In this document: piece by piece, positions 12,191 to 26,249 of the stretch
Numbering within the stretch: position 1 is the first letter of the stretch
How the letters are laid out: the number at the start of each line of letters is the position of its first letter
Origin: Firmicutes bacterium HGW-Firmicutes-15
GTDB lineage: Bacteria; Bacillota; Syntrophomonadia; Syntrophomonadales; Syntrophomonadaceae
DNA: 64,000 bases
Direction of reading: 5' to 3'
Assembly (NCBI GenBank): GCA_002840245.1
Contig: PHAA01000013.1
Coordinates: 1-64,000, forward strand
Translations under genes and position numbers: made by a program
The notes under the pieces: generated by a model
Seen by the model: only the letters and a program-made list of their open reading frames with translations
Databases searched by the model: none
What the model was told of the DNA's origin: nothing

Positions 12191-13063
12191 ATGAACATTA
12201 ATTACATATCGCGTAATGACCCGTGTTGGTGCGGGAGTGCTAGTAAATATAAAAAATGTCATTTGGAGCAAGATGCCCGGCTGATTCAAATGGAGTTAGA
12301 GGGCTGCCAGGTTCCTAGCCGGAAGCTTATTAAAACTGAGCAACAGATTGCTGGAATTGGTCGGGCCTGTCAGTTGAGCAAGCAAATTCTGGATATGGTT
12401 GGAAAGAAAATTAAAGCCGGTATTATAACTAATGAGATTAACCAATGGGTACATGAATACACTATCCAGCATGGCGCTATTCCAGCTCCTTTGAATTATG
12501 AGGGATTTCCCAAGAGTGTCTGCACTTCTCCCAATAATGTAATTTGTCATGGCATTCCGAATGATACACCTTTACAGGATGGGGATATCATAAACGTGGA
12601 TGTTACCTCTATATTGGATGGTTATTATGGCGATGTAAGCCAGATGTTTTTCGTCGGAGAACCTTCCCAGAAGGCGCAGGAATTGGTTAGGGTAGCTAAG
12701 GAGTGTCTTTACCTGGGAATAGAAAAGGTAAAACCATTTAATCGTATTGGGGATATAGCGTATGCTATAGAGCAGCATGCGAATCGACACGGGTATTCCG
12801 TTGTTCAGGATTACGGTGGGCATGGCGTAGGTCTTGATTTTCACGAAGAGCCTTTTGTGCAGCATTATGGCGACCGTGATTGTGGTATGGTATTGGTTCC
12901 AAACATGGTTTTTACCATAGAACCGATGATTAACGCCGGCAGCTATAAGTGCAAAAAGCTTAAGGATGGCTGGACCACGATAACAGTTGATGGCTCTCTT
13001 TCGGCCCAATGGGAGCATACCGTTCGAGTAACAAAAACCGGCGTGGAAATATTGAGCGAGTAG
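12191..13063 (+). CDS. map: Methionine aminopeptidase with N-terminal SEC-C motif
   Basis: The protein has 290 residues, starting at ATG 12191 after GGGAGGG. The first 30 residues are a SEC-C zinc motif (RNDPCWCGSASKYKKCH), which in this family helps docking to ribosome or chaperone partners. The remainder is a type I methionine aminopeptidase: substrate His in ICHGIPND, metal ligands in VDVTSILDGYYGD, GHGVGLDFHEEP, FTIEPM and QWEHT. It removes the initiator methionine in the cytosol. The SEC-C fusion is common in clostridia. Confidence 0.95.
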   Translation: MNINYISRNDPCWCGSASKYKKCHLEQDARLIQMELEGCQVPSRKLIKTEQQIAGIGRACQLSKQILDMVGKKIKAGIITNEINQWVHEYTIQHGAIPAPLNYEGFPKSVCTSPNNVICHGIPNDTPLQDGDIINVDVTSILDGYYGDVSQMFFVGEPSQKAQELVRVAKECLYLGIEKVKPFNRIGDIAYAIEQHANRHGYSVVQDYGGHGVGLDFHEEPFVQHYGDRDCGMVLVPNMVFTIEPMINAGSYKCKKLKDGWTTITVDGSLSAQWEHTVRVTKTGVEILSE

Positions 13064-15790: not shown

Positions 15791-17137
15791 TTAAGCTCTC
15801 AATTTATTAGTTTTAACCCAGATATTATTTTTCTCTGCCTCTTTGATCAGTTCATCGCGTAGGTCGGGATGAGCTATACTAATGAGGGCTTCGGCTCTTT
15901 CCCAAGTACTCTTGGCCTTTAACAGCACTATGCCATACTCGGTGACTACATAGGCATTGAGGCTGCGGGGTACAGTCACAGTCGCACCCGGGGTCAGGGT
16001 AGGCATGATACGGGATTTTAAGTTGCCCTCTTTGTCCTTGAAGGTGGAGGTGAGGCAGATCAGTCCCTTGGCGCCTTTGGATTTGTAGGAGCCATAAATA
16101 TAATCCAGCTGGCCGCCGGTTCCGGAGATATGCCTTACTCCCGAGGATTCCGAAGCCACCTGGCCATAGAGATCGACCTCGACCGCGTTATTGATACAGA
16201 TCATATTGTCTTGCAGGCATATGATGTCGGGATCATTGGTGTAATCCACCGGGAAGCTGGCGCAGACCGGATTGCTGTCCAAGAAGTTATAAAGCTTGTT
16301 GGTGCCCATGGCAAAGGTATAAACCATTTTACCTTTATCCAATTGTTTGCGAAGTCCAGTAATACGTCCTGCTTCATACATATCAACAAATGAATCCACC
16401 AGCATCTCGGTGTGAACCCCCAGATCTTTTAGATCGGATTGGGCGATCATGGCACCCACTGCATTCGGCATGGCGCCTATCCCCAACTGCAGACAGTCCC
16501 CGTCCTTGATCTGCTCCAAGATGATGCTGGCAATTTTTTTGTCGACATCGGATATGGGCAGTTCGGGCAGATTTATCAACTGTTTGTTGTCGCCCTCTAC
16601 GAAATAGTCGATTTCCGATACGTGCAAGGTCTCGCGCAGTCCTCCCAGACACCGGGGGACCGATTCATTTATTTCGGCGATTACTATTTTCGAAGCATCA
16701 CAAAAAGCATGGGTAAATGAATTGGAGGTGCCTAGGTTTACGAATCCGTGCTTATCTGGGGGCGTTACTTTGATGAGGGCTACGTCGGGCTGGACATAAC
16801 CGCGATCATAGAAACTGGGCACTTCATGATAGGTTATAGAGATATAGTTGCACATGCCCTTGTCATGCAGCTTGCGGCTGGCGCCGCTGAAATGATAGTC
16901 GTTATAGATGAAGTGTTTTCTTTCTGGATCATTTACTACCGTTTGGGGTGGAAAAGGACAGGTGGTGGTTCTTATATTCACCCCTTCTAGTTCATCTGAC
17001 CTTTTGGCCAGGGCCGCATCTAAAACATGGGAGTTCATCACGAATTCACCATAATGGACCAGATCGCCTGATTTAACTACTTTGACTGCTTCATCAGCAG
17101 AGACGAATTTGCTTTTGTAATTATCCATATAACTCAT
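15791..17137 (-). CDS. Acetyl-CoA hydrolase/transferase family CoA-transferase
   Basis: The protein has 448 residues; the start ATG at 17135-17137 lies behind GAAGGAGCG. The family runs acetyl-CoA hydrolase N- and C-terminal domains. The catalytic glutamate is in GVHTEMLVDSFVDMYEAG and is followed by the usual GTGGQLDYIYG oxyanion region. Length and motifs fit the 4-hydroxybutyrate or butyrate:acetate CoA-transferase branch, which exchanges CoA between acyl-CoA and acetate. Beside beta-oxidation genes it plausibly activates butyrate or recycles CoA. It lies about 400 nt downstream of a sigma-54 promoter and a dedicated EBP gene, with a small ORF between. The substrate pair is inferred. Confidence 0.92.
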   Translation of the reverse strand: MSYMDNYKSKFVSADEAVKVVKSGDLVHYGEFVMNSHVLDAALAKRSDELEGVNIRTTTCPFPPQTVVNDPERKHFIYNDYHFSGASRKLHDKGMCNYISITYHEVPSFYDRGYVQPDVALIKVTPPDKHGFVNLGTSNSFTHAFCDASKIVIAEINESVPRCLGGLRETLHVSEIDYFVEGDNKQLINLPELPISDVDKKIASIILEQIKDGDCLQLGIGAMPNAVGAMIAQSDLKDLGVHTEMLVDSFVDMYEAGRITGLRKQLDKGKMVYTFAMGTNKLYNFLDSNPVCASFPVDYTNDPDIICLQDNMICINNAVEVDLYGQVASESSGVRHISGTGGQLDYIYGSYKSKGAKGLICLTSTFKDKEGNLKSRIMPTLTPGATVTVPRSLNAYVVTEYGIVLLKAKSTWERAEALISIAHPDLRDELIKEAEKNNIWVKTNKLRA

Positions 17138-17286: not shown

Positions 17287-17403
17287 TCAAGCTTGTCCAA
17301 AAAGAGTTTTAACTAAACCTAGCATTATGTCACAGGACACGGAGAGTTTATAGCCGTTGTCCGGGGTGAAGCTATCAACCGCAGTAAAAAACGGTTTGTT
17401 CAT
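17287..17403 (-). CDS. Small ORF (38 aa) between sigma-54 promoter and CoA-transferase
   Basis: The frame is MNKPFFTAVDSFTPD..., 38 codons from ATG 17401-17403 to TGA at 17287. Its upstream AGAGGAGGTTTA...ACGATG matches the initiation region of the crotonase gene at 23404, so it sits exactly where crotonase sits in the paralogous block. No homology is recognised. It may be a real small protein, a leader peptide, or a relic of the replaced operon. Confidence 0.35.
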   Translation of the reverse strand: MNKPFFTAVDSFTPDNGYKLSVSCDIMLGLVKTLFGQA

Positions 17404-17546
17404 CGTAACTACCGTAAACCTCCTCTCATATTTGAATAGTATTTAACCTTGTGCGGAGAACAATATCACCTCCTTGGATTAAAGATAGGAAAGGTGATTT
17501 GCCATTATATGCAAATCGCTCCTTGTATAGCACAGATTTTCTTCCT
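17404..17546 (-). promoter_or_regulatory. 5' leader with perfect Shine-Dalgarno, block 1
   Basis: In RNA sense the leader carries AAGGAGGTGA (17466-17475), a full anti-16S match about 70 nt after the predicted start. ATCACCT (17492-17498) can pair with AGGTGAT (17465-17471) and hide that site. The frame after it stops within about eight codons. The same AAGGAGGTGA occurs at the equivalent place in block 2 (23460-23469). Confidence 0.45.
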
Positions 17547-17556
17547 AATTTATTAC

Positions 17557-17573
17557 AGCAATATTCATGCCAA
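17557..17573 (-). promoter_or_regulatory. Sigma-54 (-24/-12) promoter, block 1
   Basis: On the minus strand TTGGCATGAATATTGCT fits the -24/-12 consensus TGGCAY-N5-TTGCW with exact GG and GC placement. It lies just downstream of the first EBP gene and drives the small ORF and CoA-transferase. Only two positions differ from the block 2 promoter, and those lie in the spacer. Confidence 0.85.
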
Positions 17574-17788: not shown

Positions 17789-20251
17789 CTATTCCAAGCC
17801 ATATTTAGATAGTTTACGGTATAAGGCAGAGCTGTGTATTCCTAATGATTTTGCTGCTTGAACCTTGTGGCCAGAGGTTTTTGCCAGAGCCTTAATAATA
17901 ATTTGCTTTTCCAGGGTTTCAATAGTCTCTGTCAGGTTGATATTCTCTTCATCCGGACTGTTAACCTCAGAATTGGCATCTTCTAGAAGTGAGGGGAAAT
18001 GCTTAATGCCTAGATAATCCTCGTGGTTCATATCGGCCAGATTAATGGCCCTTTCAAGCAGATTTTCGAGTTCACGTACATTGCCCGGCCATGAGTAATT
18101 TTGTAGTAGTTTTCGTACCTGTTCGGAAATGCCAGTGATAGCCGTTTTTAGATTACAGTTAATCCTATCGATTAAAGCTTCGGCGATGAGGAGCACATCA
18201 ATCTGCCTTTTTCTCAGGGGGGGAATGCTCAGTCTTACTACATTCAAGCGGTAATAGAGATCCTGGCGGAATGTCTGGTTGTCGACCATTTCCTCTAAAT
18301 TACGGTTGGTGGCGGCTATGACTCTTACATTGACGGAAATAGGTGCGGTTCCCCCGATCCGTTCTACAGTTCTTTCTTGCAATACTGTGAGCATTTTGGT
18401 CTGCATAGCTAGAGGCATATCTCCTATTTCATCCAGGAAAATGGTTCCTCCGCAGGCTAGTTCAAATTTGCCCTGCTTACCACCTTTTCGGGCACCCGTA
18501 AAGGATCCTTCTTCGTAGCCAAACAATTCGGAATCTAACAGGGTGTCGGGTAAAGCAGCGCAGTTTATCCTGATGAAAGGACCGGAGTTTCTCTTGCTGG
18601 CATTATGAATGGCTTGAGCAAATAACTCTTTGCCTGTGCCACTTTCGCCGGTTATTAGGAGTGTGCTGGTGGTATGGGAAACATGTTCAGCCATTGTTTT
18701 AATCGCTAAAAACTCGGTGTCCTGACCGATAAGGTCGGGAAACCGCCATTTGGCTCTATAAAAATTGCGCACTTCTTCTTTATAAATGTTTAATTCTTTC
18801 TCAGTATCCTGTAATTTTTTAACCAGAATCTTAGCGCCAGACATATCCAGGAATAGGCTTTTCTCTATTGCACCTACGATATCGCCGTCTTTGATAATAG
18901 GTAGGCGGGTCACGATAGTTTCTCGTCCTTTGATCATGAAAATATCAGCTTTGTCAATACGCTTAGTTTTCAAGATCATAGGGAGTTCGGAACTGGGAGT
19001 TATATCAAGTATATATTTACCTACGACATCCTCTTTCTTCATCTCCAGGATGTCAAGATAGGTTTGATTCATCGTGGTAATATAACCATCTTTATCCACA
19101 ATAACATAAACCATATAAGGGCTTTCAATCAGCCCTTCTAGTATGGAAGCAAATTCTTTCTCCGTCTCTTGCATTTTTTTCATTAGAATTTTGGCTCCGG
19201 ACATATCCAGGAAAAGGCTTTTACCAATGGCTCCAATAATCTCACCGTCTTTGACAATAGGTAATCGTGTTACGATTGTGTCACGCCCTTTTATGGGCCA
19301 TATGTCAGCTTTGTCTATGCGGCCAGTTCTAAGAACCTCAGGAAGTTCAGAAGTCGGAGTGATATCCAGTATGTGTTTCCCAACTACATCTTCCTTCTTA
19401 AACCCCAGAATATCCAAGTAAGTCTGATTCATGGCAGTAATATAACCTTCTTTATCAACAATAACATATACCATGTAGGGGCTTTCGATTAGACCTTCCA
19501 GGATGGTGCTGAATTCTTTTTCGGTTTCCTGTAGCTTTTGCATTAAAATCTTAGCTCCGGACATATCCAGAAAAAGACTTTTGGCAATGGCGCCTACTAT
19601 TTGCCCGTTTTTAATAATGGGTATTCGAGTTACGATCATCTCGTGTCCTTTGATAGACCAGATTTCCGCACTGTCAATCCGACCCGTTTTAAGTATTTCA
19701 ATAAGACCGGAATTTGGTATTATATCAAGTACGTATTTTCCGATAACATCTTCCTTTTTCATTTCCATGATGTCTAGGTAGGTTTGGTTCATTGCCGTAA
19801 TGAAGCCATTGCTATCAACTGACGCATAAAGCATATATGGACTCTCTACTAGGGCTTCAAAAAGGGCAGTGAATTCTTTTTCTCTTTCCTGCAGTCTTTT
19901 CATAAAAATCTTGGCTCCGGACATGTCCAGAGAAAGACTTTGCCCAATCGCTCCTATTATCTTGCCATCCTTTATAATGGGTACACGGGTAACGATAGTA
20001 TCTTGATCTTTAATAGGCCAAATATCGGCTTTGTCAACGCGGCCAGTTTCAAGTACTTCTGGAAGTTGTGAATGGGGAAGAATTTCAAGAACGTGCTTGC
20101 CAATTACATCAGCTTTCGTTAATTCTAGGGAATCAAGAAAGGTTTGGTTCATGAGGGTTATATGGCCTTCCTTATTAACGATCACTAAGGCCATATAAGG
20201 ACTTTCAATTAGTGCTTCAAAAGTTGCATTGAATTCGTAGTCAGAAACCAT
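17789..20251 (-). CDS. Sigma-54-dependent activator with four tandem PAS domains (EBP 1)
   Basis: The protein has 820 residues from the ATG at 20249-20251, behind AAAGGAGGTCG. Four PAS units of about 120 residues run from about 5 to 485; each opens E(S)PYM and ends LDMSGAKI(L/F). In DNA this is a 360-nt periodicity. The AAA+ sigma-54 domain follows: Walker A GESGTGKE, loop GSFTGA (Ser instead of the common Ala), LDEIGDMPLAMQ, and YYRLNVVRL. The C-terminus is a Fis-type HTH (KVQAAKSLGIHSSALYRKL). No membrane segment is present, so a cytosolic ligand is likely, perhaps an acyl-CoA or redox cue. It lies just upstream of a sigma-54 promoter feeding the CoA-transferase gene. Confidence 0.93.
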   Translation of the reverse strand: MVSDYEFNATFEALIESPYMALVIVNKEGHITLMNQTFLDSLELTKADVIGKHVLEILPHSQLPEVLETGRVDKADIWPIKDQDTIVTRVPIIKDGKIIGAIGQSLSLDMSGAKIFMKRLQEREKEFTALFEALVESPYMLYASVDSNGFITAMNQTYLDIMEMKKEDVIGKYVLDIIPNSGLIEILKTGRIDSAEIWSIKGHEMIVTRIPIIKNGQIVGAIAKSLFLDMSGAKILMQKLQETEKEFSTILEGLIESPYMVYVIVDKEGYITAMNQTYLDILGFKKEDVVGKHILDITPTSELPEVLRTGRIDKADIWPIKGRDTIVTRLPIVKDGEIIGAIGKSLFLDMSGAKILMKKMQETEKEFASILEGLIESPYMVYVIVDKDGYITTMNQTYLDILEMKKEDVVGKYILDITPSSELPMILKTKRIDKADIFMIKGRETIVTRLPIIKDGDIVGAIEKSLFLDMSGAKILVKKLQDTEKELNIYKEEVRNFYRAKWRFPDLIGQDTEFLAIKTMAEHVSHTTSTLLITGESGTGKELFAQAIHNASKRNSGPFIRINCAALPDTLLDSELFGYEEGSFTGARKGGKQGKFELACGGTIFLDEIGDMPLAMQTKMLTVLQERTVERIGGTAPISVNVRVIAATNRNLEEMVDNQTFRQDLYYRLNVVRLSIPPLRKRQIDVLLIAEALIDRINCNLKTAITGISEQVRKLLQNYSWPGNVRELENLLERAINLADMNHEDYLGIKHFPSLLEDANSEVNSPDEENINLTETIETLEKQIIIKALAKTSGHKVQAAKSLGIHSSALYRKLSKYGLE

Positions 20252-20486: not shown

Positions 20487-21341
20487 CTATTTTTTATAAT
20501 CAAAGAAGCCTTCTCCGGTCTTAATGCCCAGTTTACCAGCACGCACCATTTTAACCAGAAGTGGGCAAGGACGATATTTAGGATCACCAAATTCTCTATG
20601 CAGGGTCTGCATAACAGCTAGGACTATATCCAATCCAATCATATCCGATAAAGCAAGCGGACCCATGGGATGTCCAGCTCCAAATTTCATGGAAGTATCA
20701 ACATCGACAGGATTAGCTACGCCTTCCATAACTGCATATATACCCTCGTTTAGCATTGGAACTAAAAGCCGGTTAACAACGAAACCGGGAGCTTCATTAA
20801 TTTCAACCGGAGCTTTGCCCATATCTTCGGTTAGTTTCTTAATAAGATCATAGGTATCTTGGCTGGTAGAAGATCCCTTGATTATTTCAACTAACTTCAT
20901 GGCCGGTACTGGGTTGAAAAAATGCATGCCTATCATTTTGTCTGCTCTATTAGTGGCTGCACCGATTTCGGTAATACTGAGAGCTGAAGTATTCGAAGCT
21001 AGGATACACTCGGGTTTGCAAATGGCATCTAATTCTTTAAAAATAGTTTTCTTTATTTCCATGATTTCAACTGCGGCTTCGATTACCAGATCAACATCTT
21101 TTAAAGCGGTCATGTCAATAGTACCTGTGATTCTTCCTAATATCTCGGCTTTTTCGTCTTCAGCCAGTTTGCCTTTGGAAACCAGCTTATCAAGATTCTT
21201 AGTAATTCCAGCGATACCTTTGTCAACAAATTCCTGTTTGATATCTCGTAAAACTACGTTAATTCCCTTTTGAGCAGCAACCTGAACGATACCAGCACCC
21301 ATCGTGCCGGCTCCAAGAACTGCAATTTTATTAATTGCCAA
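20487..21341 (-). CDS. hbd: 3-hydroxybutyryl-CoA dehydrogenase
   Basis: The protein has 284 residues from a TTG at 21339-21341, behind AAGGAGG with 8-nt spacing; a longer frame would add 13 residues ahead of the Rossmann fold. The NAD site is [16 protein letters not shown]. The catalytic His is in [15 protein letters not shown], preceded by [10 protein letters not shown]. The C-terminal domain shows PGFVVNRLL and [16 protein letters not shown]. It oxidises 3-hydroxybutyryl-CoA to acetoacetyl-CoA with NAD in butyrate beta-oxidation, or the reverse. It is the last gene of a three-gene operon. Confidence 0.95.
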
Positions 21342-21389
21342 TAGAAAATCCTCCTTGTATTTAGTAATACGTTCTTCCATTAGGTGTGT

Positions 21390-22595
21390 TTAGATATCTC
21401 TGGTCCACAAGGAAGCCATCGCCGGACCGCCGCCCACACAGAGAGAAGCGCCACCCAGGGTCAATCCCAGGCGCTCCATTTCATAATACATAGATACGAT
21501 TATGCGCAGGGCCGTAGCTCCCACCGGGTGACCCAGGCCAATTCCGGAACCATTGTGATTAACCTTGGAAAGATCCATTTCAATGCCGAAGTCTTCCTTT
21601 AGCATTCTGCCCACCCCGATAAATTGCGCAGCAAATGCTTCGTTGATTTCCCAGTAATCAATATCTTCATATTTTAAGCCAGCCTGTTTAAGAGCCTTGG
21701 GAATTGCTACTGCAGGGCCAACTCCCATAATGGTTGGATCAACACCCTCAGCTACAATATTGATCATCTTCAACAGGGGTTTAATTCCGAGTTCTAAAGC
21801 CTTTTCTTTGGACATTACGATAACGGCTGCAGCAGCGTCGTTAATACCGGAAGCATTGGCAGCTGTGACAACCCCTTCTTTTTTGAAAGCTGGAGGCAAT
21901 TTGGCCATCGATTCAACACTGGCATCGGGAATCATATGTTCGTCATTTTCGAAAAGTTTTACACCCTTCTTGGATTTAAGCTCCACTGGAACGATTTCCC
22001 GTTTAAATATTCCGTTTTGCATAGCAGCAGTGGCTTTTTGATGGCTGGCCAGCGCTAAGGCATCGCATTCCTCGCGGGTAATGCCATACTTGGCGGCTAC
22101 GTTTTCAGCGGTAAGGCCCATGTGACCAGGAACCAGTTTGTCAACCAGTCCGTCGTAAAGCAAGGAATCTTCAATGCTTCCGGGGCCCATGCGATATCCC
22201 ATTCTAGCTTTATCCATCATATAAGGTGCATTGGTCATACTTTCCGCGCCTATTACCAGACCGATGTCGATCTTGCCCAGCGCAATATGATCGCATATTA
22301 TTTCCAGGGCTCTCATGCCAGATGCGCAGTTCTGATTAACGTTACAGGCGTTACTTCTAACCGGAAGTCCCAATGCCATAGCCACCTGTCGGGAAGGCAG
22401 CGATCCTTGAAAATGAGGATAAATCTGGCCCAGAACCAGTTCATCAATGGCATCGGCGGGGATACCGGCTCTTTTAATAGCTTCTTTGCCTGCGGTTATG
22501 GCCAGTTCTTTGACCGACACGTCTTTCAAGGTTCCCATAAACCTGGCTATTGGGGTTCTACATGCACTTACAATTACTACTTCTTTGGTTTCCAC
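21390..22595 (-). CDS. thlA: Acetyl-CoA acetyltransferase (thiolase)
   Basis: The protein has 401 residues, starting at METKEVVIVSACRTPIARF. The nucleophilic Cys is in VNQNCASGMRAL. The second-site residues are His in GSGIGLGHPVGATALR and Cys in GASLCVGGGPA, so all three catalytic positions are intact. It cleaves acetoacetyl-CoA with CoA into two acetyl-CoA. It lies 26 bp after crotonase and about 48 bp before hbd, and shares their sigma-54 promoter. Confidence 0.95.
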   Translation of the reverse strand: METKEVVIVSACRTPIARFMGTLKDVSVKELAITAGKEAIKRAGIPADAIDELVLGQIYPHFQGSLPSRQVAMALGLPVRSNACNVNQNCASGMRALEIICDHIALGKIDIGLVIGAESMTNAPYMMDKARMGYRMGPGSIEDSLLYDGLVDKLVPGHMGLTAENVAAKYGITREECDALALASHQKATAAMQNGIFKREIVPVELKSKKGVKLFENDEHMIPDASVESMAKLPPAFKKEGVVTAANASGINDAAAAVIVMSKEKALELGIKPLLKMINIVAEGVDPTIMGVGPAVAIPKALKQAGLKYEDIDYWEINEAFAAQFIGVGRMLKEDFGIEMDLSKVNHNGSGIGLGHPVGATALRIIVSMYYEMERLGLTLGGASLCVGGGPAMASLWTRDI

Positions 22596-22621: not shown

Positions 22622-23404
22622 TTATTTGCATTTAAAATCAGCTTTCCGTTTCTCAACGAATGCCGCCATACCTTCTTTCTGATCTTCAGTCGCAAAGCAC
22701 AGTCCGAATAAGTCAGCTTCAATCGCCATAGCGGTATCAATATCTGCCTGCATACCTCGGGTTACCTGATTCTTACTTAATCGAACTGCCAAGGGGGCTT
22801 TGCCGGATATTATCTTAGCCAGCTTTTTTGCTTCAGCCATTAATGACTCCGCAGGATATACATGATTTACGAGACCTACTCGATAGGCTTCATCGGCATT
22901 AATATTAATAGCAGAATAGATTAATTCTTTAGCTCTCCCTTCACCAATTAGGCGGGGTAATCGCTGGGTTCCACCATAACCGGGAGTGATCCCTAAACCT
23001 ACCTCAGGTTGTCCAAACAGAGCCTTATCAGAAGCCAGCCTTATATCGCAAGCCATGGAGAGTTCACAGCCGCCGCCCAGCGCGAAGCCATTAACCGCTG
23101 CAATAACAGGTTTGTCCATTGTTTCGATAAGCCTAAAAACTTCTTGACCTAGGATAGCGAAGGCGCGCGCTTGCATGGCCGGAAGTTTTTGCATGTAGGC
23201 TATATCAGCGCCAGCCACAAAGGCTTTGTTACCTACCCCGGTAATGATTAACACATCTACATTCGGATCTTCAGCAATTGCCAGCACGGCATTTTTTATA
23301 TCTAATAGGGTATCTGCATTAAGCGCATTAAGCGCATTAGGTCTATTGATAGATAGTAATGCTGTCCGGTCTTCTATTTCCAGTAATATGTTTTCATAAG
23401 CCAT
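22622..23404 (-). CDS. crt: Enoyl-CoA hydratase / crotonase
   Basis: The protein has 260 residues, starting MAYENILLEIEDRTALLSIN. The oxyanion-hole segments are KAFVAGADIAYM and NGFALGGGCELSMACDIR, with the catalytic Glu in GGGCELSM and the second Glu in FGQPEVGLGITPGYGGTQR. It hydrates crotonyl-CoA to 3-hydroxybutyryl-CoA. It is the first gene of the operon. The ribosome site GAGGAGGAGG ends 14 nt before ATG, unusually far, and a perfect AAGGAGGTGA lies further upstream in the leader. Confidence 0.95.
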   Translation of the reverse strand: MAYENILLEIEDRTALLSINRPNALNALNADTLLDIKNAVLAIAEDPNVDVLIITGVGNKAFVAGADIAYMQKLPAMQARAFAILGQEVFRLIETMDKPVIAAVNGFALGGGCELSMACDIRLASDKALFGQPEVGLGITPGYGGTQRLPRLIGEGRAKELIYSAININADEAYRVGLVNHVYPAESLMAEAKKLAKIISGKAPLAVRLSKNQVTRGMQADIDTAMAIEADLFGLCFATEDQKEGMAAFVEKRKADFKCK

Positions 23405-23546: not shown

Positions 23547-23563
23547 AGCAAGATTCATGCCAA
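23547..23563 (-). promoter_or_regulatory. Sigma-54 (-24/-12) promoter, block 2
   Basis: On the minus strand TTGGCATGAATCTTGCT gives TGGCAT and TTGCT with exact sigma-54 spacing. It lies between EBP 2 and crotonase and would start a leader of about 130 nt. Confidence 0.88.
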
Positions 23564-23594
23564 CTATCAGAATATGGCGGTAATTAAGATGAAA

Positions 23595-23628
23595 GGGCGG
23601 TATATCCAGTTTGTTGGATATACCGCCC
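23595..23628. promoter_or_regulatory. 14-bp perfect palindrome, likely enhancer site for EBP
   Basis: GGGCGGTATATCCA (23595-23608), 6-nt spacer, TGGATATACCGCCC (23615-23628). Its centre is about 76 bp upstream of the predicted start, a usual distance for an EBP binding site. It could also terminate EBP 2 transcription, as it lies downstream of that gene. Confidence 0.65.
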
Positions 23629-23783
23629 CAAAGTGATTTGATGTAAGTAAATATACATTTTATTCAAAATAGGATAGATTCGAAATGATTGTCCCTTGTA
23701 AGGTTAGGATGATGCTGAATAGAAAGCACTTGCCCAAAATAGGAGACCGCTTTTCCAAAAAAGGAGACTTAATGCCCAGCAAA

Positions 23784-26249
23784 TTATTCTAACCCATACT
23801 TGGAGATTTTACGATATAATGCTGAGCTGTGAATCCCCAGCATCTTTGCGGTTTGTACCTTGTTCCCTGCGGTTTTTGCCAGAGCTTGAATTATCAATTG
23901 CTTTTCCAGGTTTTCCATGGCTTCGGGCATATTCATACTATTTACGCTTTGGGTTTGACTAACAGCGGAATCAGCCTCTTCAACCAATGAAGGGAAATGC
24001 TTAACAGTTAAATAATCTTCATGGTTCATATCAGCCAGATTCACGGCTCTTTCCAATAGATTCTCCAGTTCACGTATATTGCCCGGCCATGAATAATTTT
24101 GCAGCAGTTCACATGCCTGCTCGGATATGCCAATTATACAGGTTTTTAGATTCTTGTTAATCCTATACATCAAGTCATTGGTGATAAGTAGTACATCAGT
24201 CTGTCTATTTCGCAAAGGTGGAATACTTAGTCTTACTACATTTAAACGGTAATAGAGATCCTGGCGAAATTCCTGCTTACTGACCATTTCCTCCAAATTC
24301 CGGTTGGTGGCTGCTATGATCCTTACATTGACGAGGATAGGTATAGTTCCACCGATCCGTTCTACGGTTCGTTCCTGTAATATGGTGAGAATTTTTGTCT
24401 GCATAGCCAGTGGCATATCGCCGATTTCATCCAAGAAAATGGTGCCGCTTTGGGCCAATTCGAACTTACCCTTTTTGCCGCCTTTTCTAGCTCCGGTAAA
24501 GGCACCATCTTCATACCCAAACAACTCGGATTCCAGCAGGTTGTCTGGTAAAGCTGCACAGTTAATACGGATAAAGGGCCCGGATTTTCTTTGACTGTCA
24601 TTATGAATGGCCTGGGCAAACAGTTCTTTGCCGGTACCACTTTCACCAGTTATCAGCAGAGTACTGGTGGTATGGGATACATGTTGGGCCATTGATTTAA
24701 CTGTTAGGAATTCAGAACTATTACCGATCAGGTCAGAAAAATGCCATTTGGCTCGGTAAAATTTGCATATTTCATCTCTATAAACATTTAATTCTTTCTC
24801 GGTATCCTGAAGCTTTTTTACGAGGATCTTAGCGCCTGACATATCCAGGAAGAGGCTTTTGCCGATGGCACCCACAATTTCTCCGTCTTTGATAATGGGT
24901 AAGCGGGTTACAATGGTTTCACGTCCTTTTATTATATAAATATCCGCTTTATCAATCCGACCAGTTTTTAGGACTTCGGGAAGCTCGGAAGTTGGAGTTA
25001 TATCCAAGATATACTTTCCTATAACATCTTCCTTTTTCATTTCCAGAATATCTATATAGGTCTGGTTCATCGTTGTGATATAACCATCTTTATCTACGAT
25101 AACAAAAACCATATAAGGGCTTTCAATCAAGCCTTCCAGAATTAATGCAAACTCTTTTTCTGTCTCCTGCATTTTCTTCATCAGGATCTTAGCACCGGAC
25201 ATATCCAGGAAGAGACTCTTGCCAATGGCACCTACAATTTCATTATCTTTGATGATAGGTAATCTGGTTACGATGGTGTCGCGTCCTTTTATAGGCCATA
25301 TATCTGCCTTGTCAATGCGGCCGGTTTTTAATATTTCGGGAAGCTCTGAGGTAGGGGTTATGTCTAATATATATTTGCCAACTACATCTTCCTTGTTCAT
25401 TCCTAAGATATCTAGGTAAGTCTGATTCATAGCGGTAATATAGCCATCTTTGTCAACAATAACATAGACCATGTAGGGACTTTCGATTAGACCTTCCAGG
25501 ATCTTGGCAAAATCTTTTTCGGTTTCCCGAAGCTTTTGCATTAAAACTTTGGCCCCGGACATATCCAAGAAAAGACTTTTAGCAATGGCCCCAATTATTC
25601 GGCCGTTTTTTATGATGGGCAGCCGAGTTACGATCATCTCGTGCCCTTCTATGGACCAGATGTCTGCATTATCAATTCGGCCCGTCTTTAATACTTCAAT
25701 AAGTCCGCAATTGGGGGTTATTTCAAGTATATATTTGCCTATTACGTCTTCGATTTTAACTTTTAGGATGTCCAAGTAGGTCTGGTTCATTGCTGTAATG
25801 AAGCCATTGCTATCCACGGCAACATAGAGCATATAAGGACTTTCAACAAGGGCCTCAAAAAGGGTAGTGAATTCTTTTTCTCTTTCATGTAGTCTTTTCA
25901 TAAAAATCTTGGCTCCTGACATGTCCAGAGAAAGACTTTGCCCAATCGCTCCTATTATCTTGCCATCCTTAATAATAGGGAACCGAGTAACGATAGTGTC
26001 CTGGTCTTTTATTGGCCAAATATCGGCTTTGTCAACCCGGCCTGTCTTAAGTATCTCAGGAAGTTTGGAATGGGGAAGGATTTCAAGAACGTGTTTGCCC
26101 AATACATCATTTTTCGTTAATTCCAATGAATCTAGGAAGGTCTGATTCATAAGGGTTATATTGCCTTCCTTATTAACGATAACCAACGCCATATAAGGGC
26201 TTTCAATTAGCGCTTCGAAAGTTGCATTAAATTCGTAGTCGGTAACCAT
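23784..26249 (-). CDS. Sigma-54-dependent activator with four tandem PAS domains (EBP 2)
   Basis: The protein has 821 residues and is closely similar to EBP 1 along its whole length. Four PAS units of about 120 residues are followed by AAA+ (GESGTGKE, canonical GAFTGA loop, LDEIGDMPLAMQ) and a Fis-type HTH (KVQTAKMLGIHSSALYRKI). It sits directly upstream, on the same strand, of a sigma-54 promoter and the crotonase-thiolase-hbd operon, so it is the likely activator of butyrate beta-oxidation. The ligand is unknown. Variation between copies is higher in PAS 2 and the acidic linker before the HTH than elsewhere. Confidence 0.93.
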   Translation of the reverse strand: MVTDYEFNATFEALIESPYMALVIVNKEGNITLMNQTFLDSLELTKNDVLGKHVLEILPHSKLPEILKTGRVDKADIWPIKDQDTIVTRFPIIKDGKIIGAIGQSLSLDMSGAKIFMKRLHEREKEFTTLFEALVESPYMLYVAVDSNGFITAMNQTYLDILKVKIEDVIGKYILEITPNCGLIEVLKTGRIDNADIWSIEGHEMIVTRLPIIKNGRIIGAIAKSLFLDMSGAKVLMQKLRETEKDFAKILEGLIESPYMVYVIVDKDGYITAMNQTYLDILGMNKEDVVGKYILDITPTSELPEILKTGRIDKADIWPIKGRDTIVTRLPIIKDNEIVGAIGKSLFLDMSGAKILMKKMQETEKEFALILEGLIESPYMVFVIVDKDGYITTMNQTYIDILEMKKEDVIGKYILDITPTSELPEVLKTGRIDKADIYIIKGRETIVTRLPIIKDGEIVGAIGKSLFLDMSGAKILVKKLQDTEKELNVYRDEICKFYRAKWHFSDLIGNSSEFLTVKSMAQHVSHTTSTLLITGESGTGKELFAQAIHNDSQRKSGPFIRINCAALPDNLLESELFGYEDGAFTGARKGGKKGKFELAQSGTIFLDEIGDMPLAMQTKILTILQERTVERIGGTIPILVNVRIIAATNRNLEEMVSKQEFRQDLYYRLNVVRLSIPPLRNRQTDVLLITNDLMYRINKNLKTCIIGISEQACELLQNYSWPGNIRELENLLERAVNLADMNHEDYLTVKHFPSLVEEADSAVSQTQSVNSMNMPEAMENLEKQLIIQALAKTAGNKVQTAKMLGIHSSALYRKISKYGLE

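Follow-up and report, generated by a model that had tools for sequence, protein, structure and literature searches.

Predicted sigma-54 promoters at enhancer-binding protein and beta-oxidation gene pairs of Syntrophomonadales

The DNA of Firmicutes bacterium HGW-Firmicutes-15 investigated in this study, a stretch of 64,000 nucleotides referred to as the window, contains two similar 17-mers that resemble -24/-12 promoters and that precede genes of beta-oxidation. This raises the question of whether the sites are genuine sigma-54 promoters and, if so, which activators would act on them. Both 17-mers are found letter for letter where a preliminary description had placed them, on the minus strand and with the correct spacing (GG-N10-GC), and each follows the gene of an enhancer-binding protein (EBP) as had been claimed, with P1 located behind EBP1, P2 behind EBP2 and all elements being co-directional. 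P1 points at the genes of a crotonase, a thiolase and a 3-hydroxybutyryl-CoA dehydrogenase, P2 at the gene of a CoA-transferase:

23547..23563, minus strand: P1, predicted -24/-12 promoter TTGGCATGAATCTTGCT, predicted +1 at about 23536
17557..17573, minus strand: P2, predicted -24/-12 promoter TTGGCATGAATATTGCT, predicted +1 at about 17546
23784..26249, minus strand: EBP1, four PAS repeats, AAA+ domain with GAFTGA and Walker A motifs, Fis-type HTH (Pfam and motif inspection)
17789..20251, minus strand: EBP2, paralogue of EBP1 (85% identical) in which the sigma-54 contact loop reads GSFTGA
22622..23404, minus strand: crotonase (short-chain enoyl-CoA hydratase; NF004475, score above cut-off)
21390..22595, minus strand: thiolase (acetyl-CoA C-acyltransferase; TIGR01930, score above cut-off)
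20487..21380, minus strand: 3-hydroxybutyryl-CoA dehydrogenase (NF004474, score above cut-off)
15791..17137, minus strand: CoA-transferase, nearest to butyryl-CoA:acetate CoA-transferase TIGR03948 (584.7 bits, below the cut-off of 674.8)

Both sites match the sigma-54 promoter pattern TGGCAYR-N4-TTGCW with its GG/GC spacing. In the 3.47-Mb Syntrophomonas-like genome, the exact sequence TTGGCATGAATNTTGCT occurs only as P1 and P2, and a 16-mer copy that lacks the leading T is located at G000:C9:337. The genome encodes one rpoN, whose absence had been named as an argument against the proposal, with an RpoN DNA-binding domain recognized at E=8e-61.

The expected properties of bacterial enhancer-binding proteins are reflected in the sequences of EBP1 and EBP2, which contain a Sigma54_activat AAA+ domain, Walker A and GAFTGA motifs, the latter of which is altered to GSFTGA in EBP2, and a Fis-type HTH, and operator-like repeats recur within the upstream range of 100-250 bp that is expected for such proteins. 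The four tandem PAS repeats within one protein are 59-85% identical to each other, which suggests a recent duplication or homogenisation, and the number of these domains seems to vary among relatives. Their best match among solved structures is the cytoplasmic PAS domain of CitA, which does not identify a ligand of the array. The nearest named relative of EBP1 was found in a Syntrophomonas metagenome assembly (86%). Concerning the target genes, the CoA-transferase belongs to the acetyl-CoA hydrolase/transferase family, and the ATG start listed for the 3-hydroxybutyryl-CoA dehydrogenase (20487-21380) is probably too early; family matches start at residue 15, where a TTG codon with a good RBS is found.

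A genome-wide search for TGGCA-N6-TTGCW yields 39 sites, compared to 38 for a wrong spacing of N7 and 115 over four wrong spacings, and a total this close to background would be expected if the 17-mers were chance matches or a non-promoter repeat. Since the raw count is near this background, the intergenic sites alone are informative, which comprise 23 of the 39 sites with right spacing but only 4 of the 30 wrong-spacing sites examined. About 12 of these 23 precede a gene of a crotonase, CoA-transferase, thiolase or 3-hydroxybutyryl-CoA dehydrogenase, or a biotinyl/acyl-CoA-dehydrogenase gene pair, several of them named by likeness to window proteins alone; other targets, as assigned by Pfam, include a citrate-synthase family gene, a Na/sulfate-symporter family gene and a molybdopterin oxidoreductase. 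The regulon is thus better defined by the degenerate motif limited to intergenic DNA than by the exact 17-mer that had been suggested for this purpose, whose two matches do not define it. A backward-pattern control (39 versus 3) had made the excess over the genome look too large, probably as a result of CpG in the reversed words, and this view was corrected by the wrong-spacing controls. At the locus L007 (G000:C9, minus strand), the first ORF behind the sigma-54 site at 12391-12406 encodes a 50-aa Com-like zinc ribbon (PF10122), which is followed by a thiolase.

The conserved position of the sites argues strongly against their chance origin. With EBP1 as query against 40 relatives and subsequent retrieval of the neighbourhoods, we have compared 22 gaps between EBP and beta-oxidation genes, four from the same genome and 18 from relatives. 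The motif TGGYA-N6-TTGC is directed toward the operon in 21 of these gaps and found on the opposite strand in none, compared to a mean of 0.07 and a maximum of 2 sites in 2000 shuffles. The exception is found in G007, with TTGGCATGACTCTTGT between EBP and operon. The same anatomy, a multi-PAS EBP followed by a gap and beta-oxidation genes, is common to three families, and the site is kept irrespective of whether crt, hbd, thl or a CoA-transferase comes first. It is even present where EBP and operon are divergent (G027, G029, G033). A sigma-54 switch at these gene pairs is thus very probably real, and we consider it extremely improbable that the 17-mers arose by chance or belong to a repeat without promoter function. 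In a single-contig relative (L130, G009:C1:1533024-1534478), the EBP homologue contains four in-frame stops, and the -24/-12 site is retained together with thiolase/CoA-transferase genes.

A second pronounced feature of the gaps concerns the quasi-palindrome TCTCCTATTTTGGGAGA (TCTCC-N7-GGAGA), which is common to the region between the EBP stop codon and the -24 element, where its repeats are located 110-210 bp upstream of -24, typically at about 110, 180 and 205 bp. The candidate sites in the window are:

23751..23767, minus strand: candidate UAS copy 1, TCTCCTTTTTTGGAAAA
23730..23746, minus strand: candidate UAS copy 2, TCTCCTATTTTGGGCAA
23660..23676, minus strand: candidate UAS copy 3, weaker, TATCCTATTTTGAATAA
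17736..17752, minus strand: candidate UAS upstream of P2, CCTCCTATTTTGAGAAG

A matrix built from these four sites only was tested on 19 held-out gaps from other genomes. At a loose threshold it finds matches in 16 of the 19, leaving three without, and at a middle threshold in 10, compared to 0.2 in random windows, with matches being 65-fold denser in gaps than elsewhere. Since the HTH (GIHSSALYRK-KYGL) is conserved within this group of EBPs and differs in the more distant ones of the genome, TCTCCTATTTTGGGAGA is probably the operator of this group. The search provided no evidence for a wider regulon of EBP1 and EBP2, as the pattern is not enriched genome-wide at two mismatches (41 versus 56 in the control) and the four matches outside EBP loci that deviate at no more than one position are not followed by a convincing -24/-12 element.

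The presence of about 15 EBPs in the genome, many of them with PAS domains, raises the possibility that the -24/-12 sites are functional but answer mainly to another EBP, with the adjacent ones being redundant or directed at other targets, particularly as EBPs are able to act in trans. However, the operator is located between EBP and promoter in the loci of this genome and of its relatives and seldom occurs in other parts of those loci, and the EBPs have stayed beside beta-oxidation genes across three families, which makes control mainly by another EBP quite unlikely. We are thus confident that P1 and P2 are true sigma-54 promoters and belong to a beta-oxidation regulon of Syntrophomonadales, with EBP1 and EBP2 as their predicted activators, although the GSFTGA in place of GAFTGA in the loop of EBP2 counts against this assignment. 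The previously proposed control of beta-oxidation by RpoN has in this way gained strong support at the level of sequence from the presence of rpoN, the order-wide position and orientation of the sites and the predicted operator for the adjacent EBP.

The likeness of the two promoters, described initially as near-identity, holds in that they are similar with intact cores, but since they reside in paralogous DNA that originates from the duplication of a cassette, it mostly reflects shared descent. The P1 and P2 gaps can be aligned over their full length, and the leader of the CoA-transferase gene, whose start codon is about 409 nt away from the predicted +1 of P2, contains in between a remnant of a crotonase gene, which matches an internal part of crotonase and is accompanied by a second piece of 30 nt. 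The remnant and a hairpin behind EBP1 are located as follows:

17290..17406, minus strand: crotonase remnant in the CoA-transferase leader, 73% over 117 nt (blastn E=2e-15), containing a 38-codon ORF
23594..23629, minus strand: hairpin after EBP1, -27.7 kcal/mol, z -8.8, read as intrinsic terminator

In light of this remnant, the aligned gaps and the 85% identity of the EBPs, P2 most likely goes back to a cassette of EBP, promoter and crotonase that has since lost its crotonase by deletion. The element GGCGGTATATCC...GGATATACCGCC (23594-23629) was initially considered as UAS but rejected, as it folds very stably, relatives keep a similar hairpin with changed sequence, followed by a T-run, and GGCGGTATAT lacks enrichment in the genome (14 versus 12 for the backward control). 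In the equivalent stretch after EBP2, this folding is lost (z -0.75), and EBP2 transcripts may consequently run on into the CoA-transferase gene. The decayed terminator, the crotonase remnant inside the leader and the single strong UAS left would all be compatible with P2 as a leftover of the cassette duplication and with expression of the CoA-transferase chiefly by read-through from EBP2 or from a sigma-A promoter. We regard this as rather unlikely, since P2 has retained a full consensus with TTGGCATGAAT and TTGCT as in P1, and both its operator and the decamer in its leader, described below, are intact.

In the preferred mechanism, where P2 has remained active, EBP1 and EBP2 would work as one-component activators, each with its array of four PAS domains. 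The perception of a signal by the PAS array would lead to an AAA+ oligomer on TCTCCTATTTTGGGAGA-type operators, which both paralogues may share, and DNA looping would carry the AAA+ ring to the complex of RNA polymerase and sigma-54 at TTGGCATGAATNTTGCT, where its ATP hydrolysis would open the RpoN closed complex. P1 would thereby give rise to a crt-thl-hbd transcript and P2 to that of the CoA-transferase, whose gene would have inherited the promoter once the second crotonase cassette lost its crotonase. The steps concerning signal, binding and transcription in this scheme are adopted from the established biology of EBPs.

The lineage studied here is known for syntrophic butyrate oxidation. 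Control of such operons by sigma-54 had initially been described as uncommon in Firmicutes, which is incorrect, as CrbR, AhcR, XcgR and YctR of Clostridium were predicted to control crt-hbd-thl-bcd-etf and CoA-transferase operons together with sigma-54 (PMC6615313), and lipid-metabolism COGs are enriched in the sigma-54 regulons of Clostridia (PMC12316311). The CrbR system resembles the one described here, as it combines an EBP with C4 acyl-CoA genes that are preceded by several UAS and a sigma-54 promoter (with the consensus TTGGCATNNNNNTTGCT; PMC6615313). It differs in its operator, TGT-N10-12-ACA, which is characteristic of the CrbR orthologous group, whereas the conserved element here is TCTCCTATTTTGGGAGA with its TCTCC-N7-GGAGA pattern, in the assignment of its operon to butyrate synthesis, and with respect to the four PAS repeats found in the present EBPs. 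Over their PAS-AAA-HTH part, both EBPs match the proline reductase regulator PrdR (NF041552) best among the NCBIfam models, but their scores of 555 and 543 bits are below the cut-off of 795 and the neighbouring genes are unlike. Swol_0456 and its paralogues of Syntrophomonas wolfei, a member of the genus of the nearest named relative, share PAS, sigma-54 and DNA-binding domains; in the accessible part of that report they appear as a proteomic detection, without promoter, operator or regulon (PMC4324140). We found no paper on this promoter set in Syntrophomonas, which, given the partial library searched, is weak evidence of novelty. New with respect to these systems are the order-wide activator group, its predicted operator and a decamer, AAGGAGGTGA, that this genome contains in four leaders. 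It is poorly understood how fatty-acid oxidisers that live syntrophically and close to thermodynamic equilibrium select among the many paralogues of their beta-oxidation genes. The regulator family, the operator and promoter set and their order-wide conservation offer a concrete and testable basis for this choice, with the PAS arrays as presumed sensors of redox or metabolite state, and might provide a mechanism behind the butyrate-only proteomic observation in S. wolfei.

The decamer AAGGAGGTGA is a perfect anti-Shine-Dalgarno match, being complementary to the 3' end of the 16S sequence identified in this genome. Its two exact copies in the window are both located in the leaders of P1 and P2:

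23460..23469, minus strand: AAGGAGGTGA in the leader of crotonase, lacking a start codon at RBS distance, real start 55 nt on
17466..17475, minus strand: AAGGAGGTGA in the P2 leader, followed only by a 6-codon TTG frame

The genome contains 21 exact copies, most of the others being ordinary ribosome-binding sites. In the four EBP-linked leaders, P1, P2, C61 (G000:C61:49785) and C68 (G000:C68:50962), the decamer is located 48-65 nt before the start codon and is apparently untranslated. The lack of a start codon at RBS distance is clear for P1 and C61, and the decamers of P2 and C68 precede very short frames. A conserved leader peptide was rejected upon inspection by eye, as frames and lengths vary among leaders. 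We have also abandoned the idea of a decamer general to all sigma-54 leaders, since the purine-rich matches in most of those that are not of the EBP1 type are weak and do not exceed those of shuffles. The closest precedent is the STAB-SD of cry3A mRNA, likewise an untranslated SD-like leader sequence complementary to the 16S 3' end (PMC4113751), although the decamer here is found 65-81 nt behind -12 (in the closest leader set) and away from the mRNA 5' end. The likeness is a lead rather than a demonstration. By analogy, the decamer in Syntrophomonadales leaders might hold a 30S subunit, lengthen the life of the mRNA and so couple an energy-dependent promoter to a stabilising leader, a tentative reading that we consider possible rather than probable. 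If true, it would describe an mRNA-stabilising leader joined to a sigma-54 promoter in an energy-limited syntroph. Among the relatives, G006 contains two leaders with the exact AAGGAGGTGA, and several other leaders match it with one mismatch. Leaders with a perfect decamer include L113 and L114, for which the range of 48-65 nt before the start codon likewise holds.
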